Below the pieces are notes generated by a model, which worked only from the letters and a program-made list of their open reading frames with translations, did no database searches and was not told where the DNA came from. 64,000 nt of DNA from Streptococcus marmotae (lineage in GTDB: Bacteria > Bacillota > Bacilli > Lactobacillales > Streptococcaceae), in the NCBI RefSeq assembly GCF_001623565.1, contig NZ_CP015196.1, positions 186,001 through 250,000 on the forward strand, written 5' to 3'. The position numbers and the translations under genes were made by a program. Below, piece by piece: positions 1,888 through 56,779 of the stretch. How positions within the stretch are numbered: position 1 is the first letter of the stretch; each line of letters opens with the position of its first letter.

Positions 1888-2096
1888 TCCATATCCGTTT
1901 CTGTTCCGTCTGCTTGCATGACCTTCACCAAGGTCTTTTCTGCTTGTTGGAGTGTTTCTTGCAGTTCTTTGGAGAGTTTCATCCCTTTTTGAAATTCAGC
2001 AATCGCATCCTCCAGTGCCACATCTCCACTTTCCAAACGTGTGACAATCTGCTCCAAATCTGCCAAATTTTCCTCAAATTTCTTTTGTTTTGACAT
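1884..2096 (-). CDS. xseB: Exodeoxyribonuclease VII small subunit
   Basis: This 70-residue helical protein carries the family signature [19 protein letters not shown] followed by a long amphipathic helix. XseB binds the large subunit XseA to form exonuclease VII, which degrades single-stranded DNA from both ends in repair. The gene overlaps the 3' end of xseA by 23 bp and the start of ispA by 4 bp, so it is tightly coupled to both. Length is typical. Confidence 0.95.
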
Positions 2097-3414
2097 CCTT
2101 TACCTCAACTTCTAAGTGACCATCTCGTAGCTGAATCGTCACATTTTCCTCTTTTTTCACTTTATGAACACTATCAATGACTCGACCATTCTGCTCTAGC
2201 AGTGCGTAACCTCGTGCCACAATCCGACTGGTATCCAGCAGTAACAGACTGTTTGCCAAGCGCTTAACGTCTGAGACTTTCTGATCATAGATGACAGCCG
2301 TGTTGCTCCGTAACAATCGTTTCTGCTGGACTAATTTTTCCTGATAGAGGGCAATTTTCTGAGCTGGCGAGCATGCAAGCAAGCGCTGAGTTAATACTTG
2401 ACTCTGCTTTTCCCCTCTATTTTTATAGTCGAACATCGATTGTCGCATGCGCAATTGTAACTGATCTAATTTTTGTAAGTAGGCATCATACAGCCGTTCT
2501 GGCTGTCGAAATATCACTGAGTGAACTAATTTCTCTAACCGCTCACGATGATAGACCAACCGATTTCCCATAGCTTTACTCATCCGATTTTCCTGCTGTT
2601 TGAGATGAGATAACAGATCCAATTTGGTTACAGGTGTTGCCAATTCCGCTGCTGCTGTTGGGGTTGCTGCACGCCTATCTGCTACAAAATCTGCCAAGGT
2701 TGTATCTGTTTCATGGCCCACACTTGAGATAATCGGAATTCGTGATTCAAAAATGGCTCGGACAACTTCTTCTTCATTAAAAGCCCACAAATCCTCAATA
2801 GAACCCCCTCCACGCCCAATAATCAGAACGTCAAGGTCATCTCGCTCATTCGCCCTACGGATATTTTGAGCAATCTCGATCGCTGCACCATCTCCCTGCA
2901 CCTTGGTGGGATATAAGACGATCTCGCGACCTGGGAAACGCCGGCTAACCGTCGTAATAATATCTCGAATGACTGCTCCACTAGGACTGGTCACCACTCC
3001 AATTTTTCTTGCAAATTGCGGAATGGCTTGCTTGAATTTGTCTTGAAAAAGCCCCTCGTCCCCCAATTTCTTTTTTAATTGCTCAAACTGAATAGCAAGA
3101 GCACCAATTCCGTCTGGTTCAGCCTTTTCGATGATAATGGAGTAACTACCACTCGGCTCATACAACTGAACCCGGCCAACGACATTAATCTTCATGCCTT
3201 CTTCTAACTCAAATCCTAGCGATTTATAAACACCTGCCCAAACAGTTGCCTGAATCACTGCCTTTTCATCCTTCAGCGAAAAATACTGGTGACTCGGTCG
3301 CTTACGAAAATTAGACACCTGCCCCGTCAAATAAACCCGCTCTAAATACGGATCTCGGTCAAACTTCAACTTCAAATACTTGGTCAACGATGACACCGAC
3401 AAATAATCTGGCAT
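2074..3414 (-). CDS. xseA: Exodeoxyribonuclease VII large subunit
   Basis: The 446-residue catalytic subunit begins with an OB-fold (about residues 5-100, including [18 protein letters not shown]). The exonuclease VII core follows, with [32 protein letters not shown] and [20 protein letters not shown] coiled-coil region that binds XseB forms the C-terminal third. The ribosome binding site AAAGGAG lies 5 bases before the ATG. The leader abuts the first unit of the 3430-4390 repeat array, so any xseA transcript started further upstream would carry the complement of those repeats. Confidence 0.95.
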
Positions 3415-3419
3415 AAAAC

Positions 3420-4395
3420 TCCTTTCACTAAGATATGAGAGCGTTTAAAGCGCACAGTGAAAATAGGAAATCTGACGAAGAGTTCGTAAACTCTAGGAAG
3501 ATTTATCTTTTTCACCTAGTGCTTAGCTCGAATTCAATTAAACAAGATATGAGGGCGTTAAAAAAGCGAATGAAAATTAGGAAACATGACGAAGAAGCAG
3601 AACTTCTAGGAATGTTTATCTATTTTCCGAGCTTTTAGCCCGAATTCAATTAAACAAGATATGAGGGCGTTAAAAAAGCGAATGAAAATTAGGAAACATG
3701 ACGAAGAAGCAGAACTTCTAGGAATGTTTATCTATTTTCCGAGCTTTTAGCCCGAATTCAATTCACTAAGATACGAGAGCGTCAAACAACTCCTAGACAA
3801 AATAGGAAATCGAAGCAGGTTGTCTTGCAACCAATGAGATTTATCTTTTTGCCAGCGAGTTGTAGCCCGAATTCAATTAAACAAGATATGAGGGCGTTAA
3901 AAATACACAGTGTACCCTTAGGGCATCCGTATCTGTAAAGCGAGCAAGCTCATAACAGCTACGGAAAAATTAGAAAACATGACGAAGAGTTAGCAAACTC
4001 TAGGAAGATTTATCTTTTTCACCCAGTGCTTAGCTCGAATTCAATTAAACAAAATACGAGGGCGTCAAACAACTCCTAGACAAAATAGGAAATCGAAGCG
4101 GTTGTCTTGCAACCAATGAGATTTATCTTTTTGTCAGCGAGTTGTAGCCCGAATTCAATTCAACAAGATATGAGGGCATTTAAAGCGCACAGTGTACCCT
4201 TAGGGCATCCGTATCTATAAAACGAGCAAGCTCGCAACAGCTACGAAAAAATTAGGAAATCTGACGAAGAGTTAGCAAACTCTAGGAAGATTTATCCCTA
4301 AAGGGAGGCAAGATTGTAACTAGCTAAAGTTAGAATAGCCATGTCTCTTTTTTACACCATGCTTAATCCATATTCAGCACAACAAGATGCAAACT
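3420..4395. repeat. Tandem array of structured repeat units of about 112-117 bp (seven copies plus a degenerate end)
   Basis: The start marker AAGATATGAG (or a close variant) recurs at about 3430, 3544, 3656, 3768, 3885, 4051 and 4165. Each unit ends with GAATTCAATT. Units 2 and 3 (3544-3767) look identical. Units 5 and 7 carry an extra insertion of about 54 bp that has its own inverted repeats. Each unit can fold into a long hairpin with an outer stem, a middle stem (AAATCT/AGATTT or AAACAT/ATGTTT) and an apical stem (GAGTT/AACTC, AGAAG/CTTCT or GGTTG/CAACC). The stems differ between copies by paired changes. The array lies between the divergent xseA and pncB. No convincing gene lies inside it; a 67-codon open frame at 3435-3638 is composed of repeat sequence. 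Confidence 0.85.
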
Positions 4396-4399
4396 TTTT

Positions 4400-4705
4400 T
4401 GTATTTTCCGTTCTTTATTATACCAAAAAGGACGTGAAAAGACTAGAATTGGGACGATTCTGTTTCATTTTGTCTGTCACTATTTCGTGTGACACAAAAA
4501 ACAACTAGCCGTCTTGACTAGTTGTTTTCGGAGATTATGAAAAATATTTAGGATTACAGACAGTATACCCCATATACACTCTCTTGGCATCCGTCTTAGG
4601 GCTGATTTCAATTGTTCACTATCCTCTTACTCATAGCTACTACTACCTCGTTAAAATGAAACAGGTAGCTTGTTCCTATTACTACTGAGAATTTAATAGA
4701 CTCGT
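4400..4705. other. Intergenic stretch without recognised gene
   Basis: This AT-rich stretch lies between the two repeat arrays. It contains an inverted pair around 4495-4526 (AAAACAACTAG ... CTAGTTGTTTT), which would act as a bidirectional terminator. No open frame with a ribosome binding site was found. Confidence 0.5.
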
Positions 4706-4930
4706 GAAAAACAGTCCACTGGACCTAACTCGCGCTCTGGTTTCTTGGCTCGTAAAAAAACAGTCCACTTCAACTGGCCTCGCTCTTCCGTTTCTAGGCA
4801 AGGGAAAAACTGTCCGCAGGACGTTACTCGCTAGCCTATTTCTAAACTCGTGAAAAAACAGTCCACTTCAACTGGCCTCGCTCTTCTGTTTCTAGGCGAG
4901 GGAAAAACAGTCCGCAGGACTGTTTTTTAT
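4705..4930. repeat. Five tandem 49-bp hairpin repeats upstream of pncB
   Basis: The hairpin core CAGTCC (once CTGTCC) occurs at 4712, 4761, 4810, 4859 and 4908, exactly 49 bp apart each time. Each core is preceded by an A-rich run and CTCG(T)GAAAA- or GGGAAAA-like sequence. Alternate copies resemble each other most (CAGTCCACTTCAACTGGCC against CAGTCCGCAGGAC). The last copy forms a perfect terminator-like hairpin next to the pncB promoter. The spacers are not unique sequence, so this is not a CRISPR array. Confidence 0.8.
4904..4927 (+). terminator. Terminator-like hairpin in last 49-bp repeat
   Basis: AAACAGTCC-gca-GGACTGTTT is followed by a run of T. It would stop transcription coming from the array just before the pncB -10 box. 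Confidence 0.6.
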
Positions 4931-25319: not shown

Positions 25320-28300
25320 TTAATCTTCTACAATCTCATCTTCTTTTTTCTTACGTTTGAATGCCACTAAAGCTGCTAGAGCACTTAGTCCTCCAAGAAG
25401 ACCAACTTTATCTGCTTCCGTACCTGTCTGAGGTAGTTTAGCAGCCAATGATTCAATCGACTCAGATTTAGTCGCAGAAGCAGAGGTCGTTGTCGACACT
25501 GATTCTGATTGACTTTCTGACGGCTGTTCACTCATGGATTCTAGGTGATTGAATGACATACTTGCACTTGTTGACGCGGATGCACTTGCACTCATTGACG
25601 CCGAAGTACTTGCTGAAACGCTCTCGCTCGTACTCAACGATTGACTTGCTGAAACGCTCTCACTTGTGCTCAACGATTGACTTGCTGACACACTTTCGCT
25701 CGTGCTCAACGATTGACTCGCTGAGACACTCTCGCTCGTACTTAGTGATTGACTCGCTGACACACTTTCACTTGTGCTCAATGATTGACTTGCTGAGACA
25801 CTCTCGCTCGTGCTCAACGATTGACTTGCAGATACACTCTCGCTCGTACTCAACGATTGACTTGCTGAGACACTTTCGCTCGTACTTAGTGATTGGCTTG
25901 CTGAGACGCTTGCGCTCGTACTTAGTGACTGGCTTGCTGAAACGCTCTCACTTGTACTCAACGATTGACTTGCTGAGACGCTTTCACTTGTGCTGAGGGA
26001 TTGACTCGCTGACACACTTTCACTTGTGCTCAATGATTGACTTGCTGAGACACTCTCGCTCGTGCTCAACGATTGACTTGCAGATACACTCTCGCTCGTA
26101 CTCAACGACTGACTTGCAGATACACTTTCGCTCGTACTTAGTGATTGACTTGCTGAAACGCTCTCACTTGTACTCAACGATTGACTTGCTGAGACGCTTG
26201 CGCTCGTGCTCAACGATTGACTTGCAGATACACTTTCGCTCGTACTTAGTGATTGACTTGCTGAGACACTTTCGCTCGTACTCAACGACTGACTCGCAGA
26301 TACACTTTCACTTGTGCTCAACGACTGACTCGCAGATACACTTTCACTCGTGCTCAACGATTGACTTGCAGATACACTCTCGCTCGTACTTAGTGATTGA
26401 CTTGCTGAGACGCTTTCACTTGTGCTGAGGGATTGACTCGCTGACACACTTTCACTTGTGCTCAATGATTGACTTGCTGAGACGCTCTCACTTGTACTCA
26501 ACGACTGACTTGCAGAATACACTCTCGCTCGTACTTAGTGATTGACTTGCTGAAACGCTCTCACTTGTACTCAACGATTGACTTGCTGAGACGCTTTCAC
26601 TTGTGCTGAGGGATTGACTCGCTGACACACTTTCACTTGTGCTCAATGATTGACTTGCTGAGACACTCTCGCTCGTGCTCAACGATTGACTTGCAGATAC
26701 ACTCTCGCTCGTACTCAACGATTGACTTGCTGAGACACTTTCGCTCGTACTTAGTGATTGGCTTGCTGAGACGCTTGCGCTCGTACTTAGTGACTGGCTT
26801 GCTGAAACGCTCTCACTTGTACTCAACGATTGACTTGCTGAGACGCTTTCACTTGTGCTGAGGGATTGACTCGCTGACACACTTTCACTTGTGCTCAATG
26901 ATTGACTTGCTGAGACACTCTCGCTCGTGCTCAACGATTGACTTGCAGATACACTCTCGCTCGTACTCAACGATTGACTTGCTGAGACACTTTCGCTCGT
27001 ACTTAGTGATTGGCTTGCTGAGACGCTTGCGCTCGTACTTAGTGACTGGCTTGCTGAGACACTTTCGCTTGTGCTGAGGGATTGACTCGCTGACACGCTT
27101 TCACTTGTGCTCAACGACTGACTTGCTGAGACACTTTCGCTCGTACTTAGTGATTGGCTTGCTGAGACGCTCTCACTTGTGCTCAACGACTGACTAGCAG
27201 ACACGCTTGCGCTCGTGCTCAACGATTGACTTGCTGAAACGCTCTCGCTCGTACTCAACGACTGACTTGCTGAGACACTCTCGCTCGTACTTAGTGATTG
27301 GCTAGCTGAGACGCTCTCACTTGTGCTCAACGACTGACTAGCAGACACGCTTGCGCTCGTACTTAGTGATTGGCTTGCAGATACACTCTCGCTTGTACTG
27401 AGGGATTGACTTGCTGACACACTCGCGCTCGTACTTAGTGATTGGCTAGCTGAGACGCTTGCACTTGTGCTCAACGATTGACTTGCAGAGACGCTTGCGC
27501 TCGTGCTCAATGATTGACTTACAGATACACTCTCGCTCGTACTTAGTGATTGACTTGCTGAGACGCTCTCACTTGTGCTCAACGATTGACTTGCTGACAC
27601 ACTCGCGCTCGTACTTAGTGATTGGCTTGCTGAGACACTTTCACTCGTACTTAGTGATTGACTTGCTGAGACGCTCTCACTTGTGCTGAGGGATTGACTT
27701 GCTGACACACTCGCGCTCGTACTTAGTGATTGGCTTGCTGAGACACTTTCACTCGTACTTAGTGATTGACTTGCTGAGACGCTCTCACTTGTGCTCAACG
27801 ACTGACTAACTGAGACGCTCTCACTTGTGCTCAACGATTGACTAGCAGACACGCTTGCGCTCGTGCTCAACGATTGACTTGCTGAGACACTTTCGCTCGT
27901 ACTTAGTGATTGACTAGCAGAGACACTCTCGCTCGTACTTAGTGATTGGCTTGCTGACACACTCGCTCGTACTTAGTGATTGGCTTGCAGATACACTCTC
28001 GCTTGTGCTGAGGGATTGACTTGCTGAGACGCTCTCACTTGTGCTCAACGACTGACTAGCAGAGACGCTCTCACTTGTGCTCAACGATTGACTTGCTGAG
28101 ACACTCTCGCTCGTACTTAGTGATTGGCTTGCTGACACACTTTCACTCGTACTTAGTGATTGGCTTGCTGAGACGCTCTCACTTGTGCTCAACGATTGAC
28201 TCGCTGAGACGCTCTCACTTGTGCTCAACGACTGACTAGCAGAGACGCTCTCACTTGTGCTCAACGATTGACTTGCTGAGACACTCTCGCTCGTACTTAG

Positions 28301-31300
28301 TGATTGGCTTGCTGACACACTTTCACTCGTACTTAGTGATTGGCTTGCTGAGACGCTCTCACTTGTACTCAACGACTGACTCGCAGATACACTCTCGCTC
28401 GTACTTAGTGATTGGCTAGCTGACACACTCGCGCTCGTACTCAACGATTGACTTGCTGACACACTCGCGCTCGTACTTAGTGATTGGCTAGCTGAGACGC
28501 TTTCACTCGTACTTAGTGATTGACTTGCTGAGACGCTTGCGCTCGTACTTAGTGACTGACTTGCTGAGACGCTCTCACTTGTGCTGAGGGATTGACTTGC
28601 AGACACACTTTCACTCGTGCTCAACGATTGGCTGGCTGAGACACTCTCGCTCGTGCTCAACGATTGACTTGCTGACACACTCGCGCTCGTACTTAGTGAT
28701 TGACTTGCTGAGACGCTCTCACTTGTACTCAACGACTGACTTGCTGAAACGCTCTCACTTGTGCTCAACGACTGACTCGCAGATACACTTTCACTCGTGC
28801 TCAACGATTGACTTGCTGACACGCTTGCACTTGTGCTCAACGACTGACTTGCTGACACACTCGCGCTCGTACTCAACGATTGACTTGCTGACACACTCGC
28901 GCTCGTACTTAGTGATTGGCTAGCTGAGACGCTTGCACTTGTGCTCAACGACTGACTAGCAGATACACTTTCGCTCGTACTTAGTGACTGACTTGCTGAT
29001 ACACTCGCGCTCGTACTCAACGATTGACTTGCTGAAACACTCGCGCTCGTACTTAGTGATTGGCTAGCTGAGACGCTTGCACTTGTGCTCAACGACTGAC
29101 TAGCTGAGACGCTTGCACTCGTGCTCAACGATTGGCTGGCTGAAACGCTCTCACTTGTGCTCAACGATTGACTCGCTGACACACTCTCGCTCGTACTTAG
29201 TGACTGGCTTGCTGACACGCTCTCGCTCGTACTCAACGACTGACTAGCTGAGACGCTCTCGCTTGTGCTGAGGGATTGACTTGCTGATACACTCTCGCTC
29301 GTACTTAGTGACTGGCTTGCTGAGACACTTTCACTCGTACTTAGTGACTGACTTGCTGACACGCTCTCACTTGTGCTGAGGGATTGACTTGCTGATACAC
29401 TTTCGCTCGTACTCAACGACTGACTCGCAGATACACTTTCACTCGTGCTCAACGATTGGCTAGCTGACACGCTCTCACTTGTGCTCAACGACTGACTTGC
29501 TGACACGCTTGCACTTGTGCTCAACGATTGACTAGCTGACACGCTTGCACTTGTGCTCAACGACTGACTAGCTGACACGCTCTCACTTGTGCTCAACGAC
29601 TGACTAGCAGATACACTTTCGCTCGTACTTAGTGACTGGCTTGCTGAGACACTTTCACTCGTGCTCAACGATTGGCTTGCTGAGACACTTTCGCTTGTGC
29701 TCAACGATTGACTCGCAGATACACTTTCACTCGTACTTAGTGACTGACTTGCTGAGACGCTCTCACTTGTGCTGAGGGATTGACTTGCAGATACACTTTC
29801 GCTCGTACTCAACGATTGACTTGCTGACACACTCGCGCTCGTACTTAGTGATTGGCTAGCTGAGACGCTTGCACTTGTGCTCAACGACTGACTAGCAGAT
29901 ACACTTTCGCTCGTACTTAGTGACTGGCTTGCTGAGACACTTTCACTCGTGCTCAACGATTGGCTTGCTGAGACACTTTCGCTTGTGCTCAACGATTGAC
30001 TCGCAGATACACTTTCACTCGTACTTAGTGACTGACTTGCTGAGACGCTCTCACTTGTGCTGAGGGATTGACTTGCAGATACACTTTCGCTCGTACTCAA
30101 CGATTGACTTGCTGACACACTCGCGCTCGTACTTAGTGATTGGCTAGCTGAGACGCTTGCACTTGTGCTCAACGACTGACTAGCAGATACACTTTCGCTC
30201 GTACTTAGTGACTGGCTTGCTGAGACACTTTCACTCGTGCTCAACGATTGGCTTGCTGAGACGCTTGCACTTGTGCTCAACGACTGACTCGCAGATACAC
30301 TCTCGCTCGTACTTAGTGATTGGCTAGCTGACACACTCGCGCTCGTACTCAACGACTGACTTGCAGATACACTCGCGCTCGTACTTAGTGATTGGCTAGC
30401 TGAGACGCTTGCACTTGTGCTCAACGACTGACTTGCAGATACACTTTCGCTAGTACTTAGTGATTGACTAGCTGACACACTCGCGCTCGTACTTAGTGAT
30501 TGGCTAGCTGAAACACTTTCGCTCGTGCTCAACGATTGACTTGCTGAAACACTCTCGCTCGTACTCAACGATTGACTTGCTGACACACTCGCGCTCGTAC
30601 TTAGTGATTGGCTAGCTGAGACGCTTGCACTTGTGCTCAACGACTGACTAGCAGATACACTTTCGCTCGTACTTAGTGATTGACTAGCTGACACACTCGC
30701 GCTCGTACTTAGTGATTGGCTAGCTGAAACACTTTCGCTCGTGCTCAACGATTGACTGGCTGAAACACTCTCGCTCGTACTCAACGATTGACTGGCTGAC
30801 ACACTCGCGCTCGTACTTAGTGATTGGCTTGCTGAGACGCTTGCACTTGTGCTCAACGACTGACTAGCAGATACACTTTCGCTCGTACTCAACGATTGAC
30901 TTGCTGACACACTCGCGCTCGTACTTAGTGATTGGCTAGCTGAGACGCTCTCGCTCGTACTCAACGATTGACTTGCTGAGACACTTTCGCTCGTACTCAA
31001 CGATTGACTGGCTGACACGCTTGCACTTGTGCTCAACGACTGACTTGCTGAGACACTTTCGCTCGTACTCAACGATTGACTAGCTGACACGCTTTCACTT
31101 GTGCTCAACGACTGACTTGCTGAAACACTCTCGCTCGTACTCAACGATTGACTGGCTGACACACTCGCGCTCGTACTTAGTGATTGGCTTGCTGAGACGC
31201 TTGCACTTGTGCTCAACGACTGACTAGCAGATACACTTTCGCTCGTACTCAACGATTGACTTGCTGACACACTCGCGCTCGTACTTAGTGATTGGCTTGC

Positions 31301-33799
31301 TGAGACGCTTGCACTTGTGCTCAACGACTGACTAGCAGATACACTTTCGCTAGTACTTAGTGATTGACTTGCTGAAACGCTCTCGCTCGTGCTCAACGAC
31401 TGACTCGCAGACACGCTCTCACTTGTACTCAACGATTGACTTGCTGAAACGCTCTCACTTGTGCTGAGAGATTGACTAGCAGAGACGCTCTCACTTGTGC
31501 TCAACGACTGACTAGCAGACACGCTTGCGCTCGTGCTCAACGATTGACTTGCTGAGACACTTTCGCTCGTACTTAGTGATTGGCTTGCTGAGACGCTTTC
31601 ACTTGTGCTCAACGATTGACTAGTAGAGACGCTCTCGCTCGTGCTCAACAATTGGCTAGCTGACACGCTTGCGCTCGTACTGATGGACTGACTCGTAGCA
31701 ACACTCTCACTGAGCTTAGCGCTTGTACTCAAGGATTCACTCGTGGCAAGTGATTCACTCACACTATTATAACGGTCATAGTAAGAATACGTTACAGTGG
31801 TAATCCCTTCTCTATACGTTAACGTATTTCCAGCAGTATGGCCAGTAGCTGTTGCAATATTTGACCGTTTCAGCTCATAGCGTGGACCATAATCAACACC
31901 TTTGATAACAATCCTATCTGTCAACTCTACATCATTAGTTAAATCACGAGTCTCACCAGCAGGACCAGAGAAGTATTTATCAGCGCGGATTTCAGCTCCC
32001 GTCGCATCATTGACAAACTTCACTTGGATTAAGGCTCCACCAGCCGTATAATTAAAGGATTCTAATTTAAATTGTTGTAAATTATAAGCACTACCTGTAG
32101 AGGCAAACAAGTTCAAGGCAAGCTGCTCTTCACCAGCCCTGTCGCCTGTCGTTCTACGACTTAAATTTAACCAATCTTGGATGTTTTTTACAAATGTTTG
32201 GCCATCATAGGTCACTGTCAATTGCTTGGTTTGACCGTTGTAAGAAACTCTATAATCTTTAAACGTTCCATCCAATCGATTATTTAAAACTTCTGTATCT
32301 CGTTGCAGGGTAATAACCTTACCATTTGCATCTGACTGGGTAAAGGCACCAAAAGCATTTTGAGTAGCATTTTTGCGGGTTGCGCTAAATCTTGGATCTG
32401 CACTTGCATAGTTCGTTGAGTTTGGGGTACTTGTATTATGGTAGGTATCTAGCTTAAAACCAAATGAATATTTTAAGTTTGTTCCACCCATACCAAGGCT
32501 CGCTCCAGCACCATTTCGAGTGGCTGTACCATTTCCAAGTTCCCCAACTCGTCCAGTTGAGAATACGGCAGCAATCCCGTCTCCCCCTGTATGAGTCCCA
32601 TAGACTCCATCATAGCTATCCCCTAGGTTGATTTTCCCAACAAGGCTGAAACTCTCATCCATGGAAATCTTGGTATTCAAGGTATAGGCACCTGCCTGAC
32701 TTCCGGCAGCATCTGTCAATGTTACTGTCCCATCTGGCATGAGGCGAGCATTCCCATACGTTGAGAAATAACCATCTTGGTTACTCTGATCAACACGGAG
32801 CATTACTTTCCTATTTTCGTAAGTCGCATTTGCTAGGTTAACCGGCGTATAATCGGCGCTTGAAGTAGCACGATCTGTACCTGCATCCACTGAACGGAAG
32901 GTTCCTAGTGAGCGACGACTTCTAGTCCGCGGTGTATCTGCTGTTGCGGTAGCTGTAGTTGTCTCTGTGACTGCTGCATTTGTCGCATTTACAGCCGCTA
33001 TAGAAGTTGTAGCTGCAATCGCCTCCGATACAGTCTTCGGTGCTTCTACTGCTGCAACTGAAAAATGAGACTTTGGAGCAAGGGTAGTTTCTGAAACCTC
33101 TGACATTGAAGAGGCAGTTGAATTTGCTGCTTCATCCGTTGCAACTGATTCGCTTGTCGGACTGATTGATTCCGATTGTGCTACTGGTTCTGAAGTACTG
33201 GTTGATGTTGAAGCACTGGTTGTCGTCGAAACGCTCTCACTGGTCGAAACTGACTCACTAGCTGAAAGCGAAGTAGAGGTCGATGTCGAAACAGAGGTAC
33301 TTTCAGATACCGATCCGCTTGTCGATGCAGAGATACTCACTGATTCGCTTGTGGAAAGAGAGGCTGTATCACTTGTTACAAGGGACTCTGTATCTGAGCT
33401 AGGAACAGGCTCCAACTCAGAAGTGGAAGTTGCCTCCTCTTCTCTAGATAGGACAACTGTATCCTTGCCTGCAACGATACCTTCTGTTTGTTCTGGTAAT
33501 TCTTTCTCTACTTGAGGTGTTTCTTCAGCATAGGCATGCGTTTGTGTTAATAACGCCCCTCCCCCGACGGCTCCAAGAGTAACCAGCGCCTTCAAATAAG
33601 CTGAAGCATTTGACTCAATACTATCTGTACTATCAATGTCTGCAACGACTTGTTCTGCAGCATTCTTGCTCCCCAAGACACGTAGCAAACCTAGTTGCGA
33701 CATAACCGTTCGCACCCAGTTTTTACCGGATTTGTGTAATTTGACACGACTCTTACGGTCAATCTCATCAAATTCACGATTGAACTTTTTGCGGTTCAT
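25320..33799 (-). CDS. Serine-rich repeat surface adhesin, LPQTG-anchored, frame broken twice in the repeats
   Basis: The start is the ATG at 33799 ([12 protein letters not shown]), 8 bases after AAAAGGA; an ATG 9 bp earlier lies inside that site. Parts in order: KxYKxGKxW-type signal (KLHKSGKNW) of accessory Sec substrates; short serine-rich region; L-type-lectin-like domain (about 32030-32900; [12 protein letters not shown]); MucBP-like segment; about 170 copies of [11 protein letters not shown](E/A); LPQTG, membrane span, charged tail. Such proteins are glycosylated adhesins. The frame shifts near 27963-27969 (two bases short) and 26516 (one base extra), so the literal reading gives an unanchored protein of about 1960 residues. 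Assembly or sequencing error is a real alternative. No secA2/secY2 or glycosyltransferase gene is in the window. Confidence 0.85.
25590..31710 (-). repeat. 36-bp coding tandem repeat, about 170 copies
   Basis: Each 36-bp unit encodes 12 residues with serine at every second place. The unit varies mainly at one codon (Glu or Ala) and at synonymous sites. Higher-order copies exist: a 288-bp block (8 units) starting at 29602, 29889 and 30177, and a 252-bp block (7 units) at 25779-26030 repeated at 26644-26895. These show recent recombination within the array. Confidence 0.9.
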
Positions 33800-35452: not shown

Positions 35453-35572
35453 CTTCTTCCTCCAATTTTTAACAAATTAGAGAAGTGGGAAAGCAATCCT
35501 TTGCACCTATCAAAAGCAGCAGAAAGCATATATTAGCCTTCCTCGCCTTGTCAGCTACAAATCAATTGTTCT

Positions 35573-35681
35573 CCGTCTTCTCCCATCCAGACTATACTGT
35601 CGGTTGTGGAATTTCACCACATCGGCTTTCGCTCGCGGACTATCACCGCCGGTAGGGAATTGCACCCTGCCCCGAAGACTG
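35573..35681 (-). promoter_or_regulatory. FMN riboswitch (RFN element)
   Basis: The minus strand reads GTCTTC-closing stem (35575-35580 with 35674-35679), GGGGCAGGGTG, CCGGCGGTGATAGTCC, GCGAGCGAAAGC and CTGGATGGGAGAAG, all conserved RFN landmarks in order. It lies about 120 bp before ribU. Part of the 3' closing strand (GAGAAG) can pair with CTTCTC near the ribU ribosome site, so control of translation or early termination is possible. FMN should turn the gene off. Confidence 0.95.
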
Positions 35682-35831
35682 TTCCTCACCAACTATCAAC
35701 AGGTAGACTTCTCACTCCACTTGGCGTATCCCCCACTCCAAACCTAGAAAAGAGGAAACTAAAGGCCATGCTGATTAATAGCTGACGAGTACTAGCTAGT
35801 GAATACCTCCACTAGCTACCTTCCATGATAC

Positions 35832-36430: not shown

Positions 36431-36677
36431 CGATTTTCCTCGTACTCTTTTAGGTCCTTATCAGCATCTCATTGCAAAAAAATAGCCACACTGCTCGGAG
36501 TCAGGCTCAGCAAACAGCATGGTGAATGATGATTTCATTCACTTAAATCACAACAGGTTTGATTTAAATCAATGAAAATCTTGTTCTTATTATAACGCAA
36601 GCAAGGTAAGTCGTCAAGCGATATGATTGAAAATCCTTGATTTTTTCACTTGTTTCTCATTACTTTCATGATACAGC

Positions 36678-56529: not shown

Positions 56530-56779
56530 ATAAACTCCTTTATCTTATCTCTTCATTATAGCACACTTTCCCAAATACATTAAAGGAGAGACTTTTCATT
56601 TTTCATCCGTATTCCGTTTCGTTTGCAAAAACCACAAAATAAACCGATAAAAAGAGGCTCTATAATATCTGTAGTGGGTACGCCCGCCACAGAGATTATG
56701 GAGCCTTTTTCAGTGTAGAAAAAAAGTTCCATATGACCTATAATGAAAAGCGACACAACTATCATTTAGAAAGACTCAT

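Follow-up and report, generated by a model that had tools for sequence, protein, structure and literature searches.

Hairpin repeats arrayed in tandem upstream of xseA in Streptococcus marmotae raise the question of what keeps their arms complementary: a role as structured RNA in the leader of the gene, or the spread of the repeats as DNA. The first-pass annotation of the window (the whole 64,000-nucleotide stretch analysed) had described seven tandem units of about 115 bp and had proposed a structured RNA family. The array itself was borne out: on the plus strand, seven hairpin-forming units follow one another head to tail between 3430 and about 4377. They measure about 112-115 bp including spacing, with 4 nt between neighbours, and two are enlarged by inserts. 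Scores refer to a covariance model of the repeat, R1.

3430..3539, plus strand: unit 1; apical stem GAGTT/AACTC, middle stem AAATCT/AGATTT; 123.2 bits
3544..3651, plus strand: unit 2; AGAAG/CTTCT, AAACAT/ATGTTT; 107.7 bits
3656..3763, plus strand: unit 3, near-copy of unit 2; 107.7 bits
3768..3878, plus strand: unit 4; GGTTG/CAACC, outer stem ACAACTC/GAGTTGT; 82.9 bits
3883..4046, plus strand: unit 5; hybrid middle stem, boxB-like hairpin insert of about 54 nt at about 3913-3966
4051..4160, plus strand: unit 6, of the type of unit 4; 84.9 bits
4165..4377, plus strand: unit 7; boxB-like insert at about 4195-4248, boxD-like insert at about 4297-4344; partial match over 4165-4296
4384..4390, plus strand: AAGATGC, remnant of the 5' end of a further unit, assigned by eye from the sequence

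Units 1, 2, 3, 4 and 6 are plain hairpins of 108-111 nt each, and units 2 and 3 are 99% identical. The landmarks described as common to all seven units are broadly shared, with slight variants in unit 4 (AAGATACGAG) and unit 6 (AAAATACGAG). Six of the seven units end in GAATTCAATT; the exception is unit 7, which carries two inserts, the boxD-like one on the arm opposite to the boxB-like one, and a decayed 3' end that was assigned by eye. The plain units pair as described, with apical, middle and outer stems changing in pairs, and the hybrid nature of unit 5 was confirmed in the sequence (AAACAT in one arm of the middle stem, AGATTT in the other).

The array lies in the xseA leader

The array had been placed in the leaders of both xseA and pncB. 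The xseA part stood, since on the minus strand the array has a promoter-like site on its upstream side and the xseA Shine-Dalgarno sequence on its downstream side. The pncB part found no support: some 570 bp separate the end of the array from pncB, and the promoter-like site of xseA falls within that interval.

2074..3414, minus strand: xseA, exodeoxyribonuclease VII large subunit (TIGR00237, 2.1e-138)
3419..3425, minus strand: xseA Shine-Dalgarno AAAGGAG, between array and ATG, read from the sequence
4417..4425, minus strand: extended -10-like TGGTATAAT, probable xseA promoter, from TATAAT conservation upstream of xseA

Of the 30 genomes read, 26 have TATAAT no more than 260 nt upstream of xseA; the remaining four are three array carriers, where the site would be more distant, and one contig end. 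A consensus promoter scan of the window did not list TGGTATAAT at 4425-4417. The 5' end of unit 1 lies 4 nt from the antisense xseA Shine-Dalgarno sequence, and all seven units are predicted to fall within a leader of about 1 kb, where they can be transcribed as hairpins.

Other features were seen in the window. Between xseA and pncB, a sub-threshold match to csRNA (Cia-dependent small RNA) lies at 4498-4584 on the minus strand (38.6 bits against a cut-off of 57, E 0.0044). A second tandem repeat of 49/98 bp (AAAAACAGTCC...), unrelated to the first, lies just upstream of pncB at 4697-4913; its hairpins run into stretches of T and resemble terminators or attenuators stacked in series. At 25608-31681 a 36-bp repeat recurs about 169 times and perhaps encodes a long repeat-rich surface protein. 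Rfam matches above cut-off were an FMN riboswitch (35571-35683), a 23S-methyl RNA motif (36479-36578) and Srn266 (56656-56766, minus strand).

Arms of the hairpin change in concert

RNA folding gives one long hairpin for the plain units, whichever strand is used. Single-stranded DNA folding also gave long hairpins for units 1 and 6 (both strands) and units 2 and 4 (plus strand), with z from -2.25 to -3.95. We scored covariation in an alignment of 43 copies, drawn from the window and from 26 other loci, using a structure of 32 pairs set partly by eye; RNAalifold alone lacked the two outermost stems, which were added by eye. Paired cells made up 90.9% of the alignment against 75.9% after shuffling, and double-sided changes occurred at 23 of the 32 pairs. 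Double-sided cells numbered 204, compared with 61.9 in shuffled alignments, and none of 500 shuffles reached 204; sliding the partner by 1-3 columns gave at most 67. These counts strongly support selection on the hairpin, as the first-pass annotation had argued for either RNA or single-stranded DNA.

The stems reach the ends of the element and are interrupted by two conserved asymmetric internal loops, ATAGGA/TATC and GACGA/CTAGGA. These loops bear on an alternative to selection, in which template switching at quasi-palindromes copies one arm onto the other. Such a mutational process would yield strand-symmetric, nearly perfect Watson-Crick stems, as found here, but the two loops persist uncorrected, the first of them also outside Streptococcus, and the hybrid stem of unit 5 was likewise left unrepaired. 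We regard this origin of the paired changes as unlikely.

Pairing is kept probably at the DNA level

RNA helices tolerate G.U but not A.C, so that the ratio of the two mispairs reveals the strand under selection. The FMN riboswitch was too conserved to serve as a control (8 G.U and 2 A.C cells), and tmRNA was therefore taken. Variable pairs of 29 tmRNA sequences gave G.T:A.C ratios of 74:10 in sense and 9:35 in antisense. Put through the same pipeline, 118 thinned copies of the repeat gave 82:53 and 53:42 on the two strands, and 37 non-streptococcal copies gave 36:30 and 29:37. A model-fitted alignment of 118 distinct copies gave 56:53, summed over the listed pairs with four misregistered, invariant or wobble pairs excluded. 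In model R1 the register of stem P1 is off; the G.T/A.C counts exclude its pairs (10,103) and (14,100) or P1 as a whole. With P1 and the core dropped, 144 thinned copies gave 72:49, the remaining cells being 2617 Watson-Crick and 99 of other kinds. A helix finder neutral to strand, set to take whichever register has the most Watson-Crick pairs and to accept helices at three or more of five, could use 150 of the 173 thinned copies; the ratio was 16:12 in Streptococcus (1730 Watson-Crick, 52 other) and 2:3 outside it.

G.T and A.C mispairs are thus about equally rare, unlike in tmRNA, and the arms are therefore probably kept matching mainly at the DNA level. The proposal of a structured RNA family was accordingly not upheld by most counts. 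One cruder count dissents: a plain sequence-only alignment with 9 variable pairs gave 9:24, 9:33 and 5:2 by gene context, and the excess of A.C in two of the three groups would fit selection on minus-strand RNA. Splitting the copies by local mRNA strand gave 27:23 versus 12:3 (Fisher p=0.08), which hints that the mRNA strand matters. RNA-level selection after insertion is possible.

Both the dissenting count and the mRNA-strand hint speak for a cis-acting structured RNA, that is, leader hairpins with a host function that spread and were then kept for tuning translation or mRNA decay of the downstream gene. The scarcity of G.U-type pairs and the lack of a clear strand bias in most counts speak against it, as do the many copies that lie after stop codons, in arrays or inside an insertion sequence (IS) gene. 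On balance we consider this reading doubtful, though likelier than template switching.

The repeat is spread through Lactobacillales

The first-pass annotation had proposed a covariance-model search of streptococcal genomes, and R1 picks up the family widely, with covariation beyond chance in the 43 shuffled-tested copies above. In the genome of the window, R1 found at least 41 matches in 23 clusters among the best 150 of 1282 candidates scored. A blastn search with unit 1 matched 140 of 147 Streptococcus genomes. Across Lactobacillales, with nine candidates scored per genome and stricter filters, R1 matched 115 of 395 genomes: 68 of 71 from Streptococcus (three are listed without a match) and 47 of 324 from 13 other genera. 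Scores outside Streptococcus were modest, mostly 29-60 bits with one at 83; many of these matches formed tandem arrays with the same core. Twenty non-streptococcal genomes, picked from the positives and searched again, held 1 to 60 matches each. In a phylum-wide sample of 299 genomes (12 candidates scored each), 297 had no R1 match, and the two hits were from the own genus.

A scan with a named pattern returned at least 80 loci. R1 matched 75 of the 80 listed, from many species of Streptococcus (S. sanguinis, S. mitis and S. pneumoniae among them) and from Enterococcus and Alkalibacterium; among those 80, an Atopococcus locus, Enterococcus contigs L142 and L165, and L178 and L185 gave no match. 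Loci named S. suis also carry R1 matches. Over 1.9 kb, a locus from the record S. suis W153 shows 78% identity to the host genome.

The units resemble a named S. suis repeat

The first-pass annotation knew no name for the family and listed a match to a named repeat as grounds for refutation; such a match is probable. A search of Rfam at gathering and relaxed thresholds brought up a single, spurious match over the array, that of a miRNA model to unit 1 at 20.7 bits, where the cut-off is 90. A published description probably fits. According to Croucher et al. 2011 (PMC3049150), S. suis BOX-type repeats have boxA and boxC ends with boxB and boxD modules, RepSU1 being the smallest form. The same text states that the three repeats of the pneumococcus hardly occur in streptococci beyond S. 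mitis, that a related set occurs in S. suis, and that thorough de novo repeat searches in other species lay outside its scope. The window units resemble RepSU1 in their S. suis-like host, a smallest form of about 100 nt, modular boxB/boxD inserts and the character of an interspersed BOX type, and they are probably S. suis BOX A-C (RepSU1) repeats. Some points sit less well. With boxA and boxC of about 50 nt each, the 110-nt unit matches their sum, but the insert splits the unit about 30/80. In that description boxB is optional and boxD occurs only together with boxB; in the window, boxD is confined to unit 7, which also has boxB, and a crude core search found D without B at some loci, e.g. L006, L010 and L070. 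RepSU1 is described there from S. suis, and the parts consulted give no covariation test, strand test, target duplication or gene-edge polarity for it.

The pneumococcal BOX is likewise a modular hairpin repeat with paired ends, for which target duplications are reported (PMC3049150), but it differs in sequence. S. pneumoniae 19F (locus L200) carries an R1 unit upstream of dnaJ and a presumed BOX at the opposite end of the gene. R1 had no match at E<=1e-3 to this presumed BOX, and BOX was rejected as the identity of the units. By description the family can also be likened to ERIC/IRU of enterobacteria, a roughly 120-bp imperfect palindrome with internal inserts found in transcribed intergenic regions of many related genera; the two differ in sequence and in bacterial order.

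Within the literature searched, which leaves subscription journals and preprints outside its scope, S. suis repeats are named only in PMC3049150, and there is no report of a genus- or order-wide family or of a split-start arrangement in streptococci. On these searches, the breadth of the family, its covariation and near strand-symmetric pairing, the target duplication for the RepSU1 type, the gene-edge polarity and the split-start arrangement appear to be new.

Filled and empty sites suggest mobility

Pairs of filled and empty sites suggest that the unit moves. Genome G000 has two places where a unit interrupts an IS transposase gene. In G053, of which one of six matching copies was read, the homologous IS is unbroken and TTTC occurs once, whereas G000 reads TTTC-[3 nt+unit]-TTTC. 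At a second locus, in front of a gene whose start reads like AtpD, an extra G000 unit lies between two TTTAT, and G115 has TTTAT once. Two filled/empty pairs thus give target site duplications of 4-5 bp (TTTC and TTTA(T)) at a TTTN target, as in a miniature inverted-repeat transposable element (MITE). The unit ends pair with each other. Some copies carry hairpin modules as inserts, and G000 and G053 differ, as judged by eye, in the order but not in the types of units in their xseA arrays.

Mobile hairpins that are recognised as single strands by a strand-specific recombinase (HUH/REP-like or attC-like) would share the end-to-end hairpin, the conserved unpaired bases and the strong insertion polarity seen here. 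The target duplications in the two pairs are unexpected for such a mechanism, and the left flank of the units has no invariant tetranucleotide. We hold this explanation to be improbable. More likely, the array was built from a non-autonomous interspersed repeat of about 115 bp that resembles a MITE, is most probably of the S. suis BOX A-C (RepSU1) type and belongs to a family spread through Lactobacillales.

Units lie at gene edges and appear to split start signals

To describe landing sites we kept 141 of 186 arrays, after dropping duplicates, mixed-orientation arrays and those less than 300 bases from a locus end. The 5' (AAGATAC) end lies 0-6 nt from an opposite-strand ATG in 24 arrays (17%, against 1.7% of 2820 random noncoding points), 13-21 nt from one in 28 (20% against 2.0%), and 2-4 nt from a same-strand stop codon in 25 (18% against 0.7%). 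Only 13 of the 141 arrays have their 3' end within 60 nt of a gene edge. The 24 start-adjacent arrays are phylogenetically non-independent, nine of them being at dnaJ, and at two (L008, L191) the chosen ATG looks wrong. Best NCBIfam matches assign this class to eight genes (DnaJ, CarB, PrfA, UvrA, PurB, RsmA/KsgA, DeoD and ParC), the matches being fragments and several of them below the curated cut-off.

For 21 of the 24 start-adjacent arrays, a loose pattern search within 30 nt placed a Shine-Dalgarno complement past the distal hairpin end, and for none between unit and ATG; among the other arrays the former occurred in 5 of 117. By its unit-ATG distance xseA is a member of the 13-21 nt class, where the Shine-Dalgarno sequence lies between unit and ATG in 22 of 28. 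Upstream of purB (L058) and carB (L052), an extra GCCGTATTTGC segment, common to both leaders, lies between the Shine-Dalgarno sequence and the unit; it could pair with the end of the unit as an alternative hairpin.

We read the region upstream of dnaJ in 70 of 98 matched genomes. In 55 of them the ATG is preceded by a unit at a distance of 2-5 nt, always in the same orientation; 53 of these units are full-length matches at E<=1e-3, one (L374) is a short form and one (L355) matches at 4.3e-3. A Shine-Dalgarno-like site lies no more than 20 nt beyond the far end of the unit in 53 of the 55, directly adjacent in 24, and between unit and ATG in none. In the directly adjacent cases, folding out the hairpin would leave about 7 nt between Shine-Dalgarno and ATG. 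Among the 15 genomes without such a unit, L361, L373 and L375 have an ordinary Shine-Dalgarno before the ATG, as read by eye, and the others have different hairpins or insertions. Two leaders differ in form: the short hairpin of L374 (genome G018) has the family termini without the TAGGA core, and a reduced relative may be present in genomes that the model scored negative; L317 (G092) retains the last 10 nt or so of a unit before the ATG, behind other inserted sequence.

The dnaJ units fall into 12 clusters at a similarity ratio of 0.85. In 42 distinct units, stems P0, P2, outer P3, P4 and P5 hold 809 Watson-Crick, 9 G.T, 11 A.C and 8 other cells. Conservation of the fold in the dnaJ leader across species suggests a host role beyond parasitism. 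These dnaJ data, together with the displaced Shine-Dalgarno sites, also speak for the structured RNA reading.

mRNA structure between Shine-Dalgarno and AUG is known from phage T4, where split ribosome binding sites of genes 25 and 38 have their spacing shortened from 22 to 5 and from 27 to 11 nt (PMC3014915). Here, by sequence, a hairpin separates the two signals in the start-adjacent arrays and dnaJ units counted above. The T4 case concerns phage genes; the present one is a repeat of about 110 nt in at least eight chromosomal genes, known from its sequence. Tentatively, and with somewhat less than even confidence, we suggest that the family acts as a portable split ribosome-binding site, such that translation of dnaJ, carB, prfA, uvrA, purB, rsmA, deoD and parC would depend on a hairpin of about 110 nt folding out. 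Because the dnaJ arrangement was kept across much of Streptococcus while the hairpin sequence turned over, the selfish element may there have turned into a permanent switch of translation, possibly one sensitive to heat or RNase.

Discussion

We favour copies of a MITE-like, RepSU1-type repeat as the explanation of the array. This reading draws on the covariation, the RNA and DNA folds on both strands, the weak strand bias, the TTTN duplications, the copy number, the inserts, the unit order and the gene-edge polarity. Weighing against it are the small number of filled/empty pairs, the dissenting 9-pair count, the mRNA-strand hint, the uneven module split and the fold conservation at dnaJ. An enzyme acting in trans would recognise folded or paired DNA arms, and if it reads paired arms, only copies with matching arms would keep moving. 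Tandem arrays could arise from repeated insertion beside older copies and recombination between units. An inserted copy would be transcribed as a leader hairpin, and one placed between Shine-Dalgarno and start codon would, by folding, restore a working distance.

What had been scattered repeats thereby becomes one covarying family across Lactobacillales, and BOX-type repeats of the RepSU1 sort gain a defined hairpin, a target and an insertion polarity. The analysis also draws attention to conserved housekeeping genes in which a mobile-looking hairpin interrupts the start signal. Two questions become testable: what moves BOX-type repeats, and whether the ribosomes of these bacteria begin translation across a folded insert of about 110 nt.
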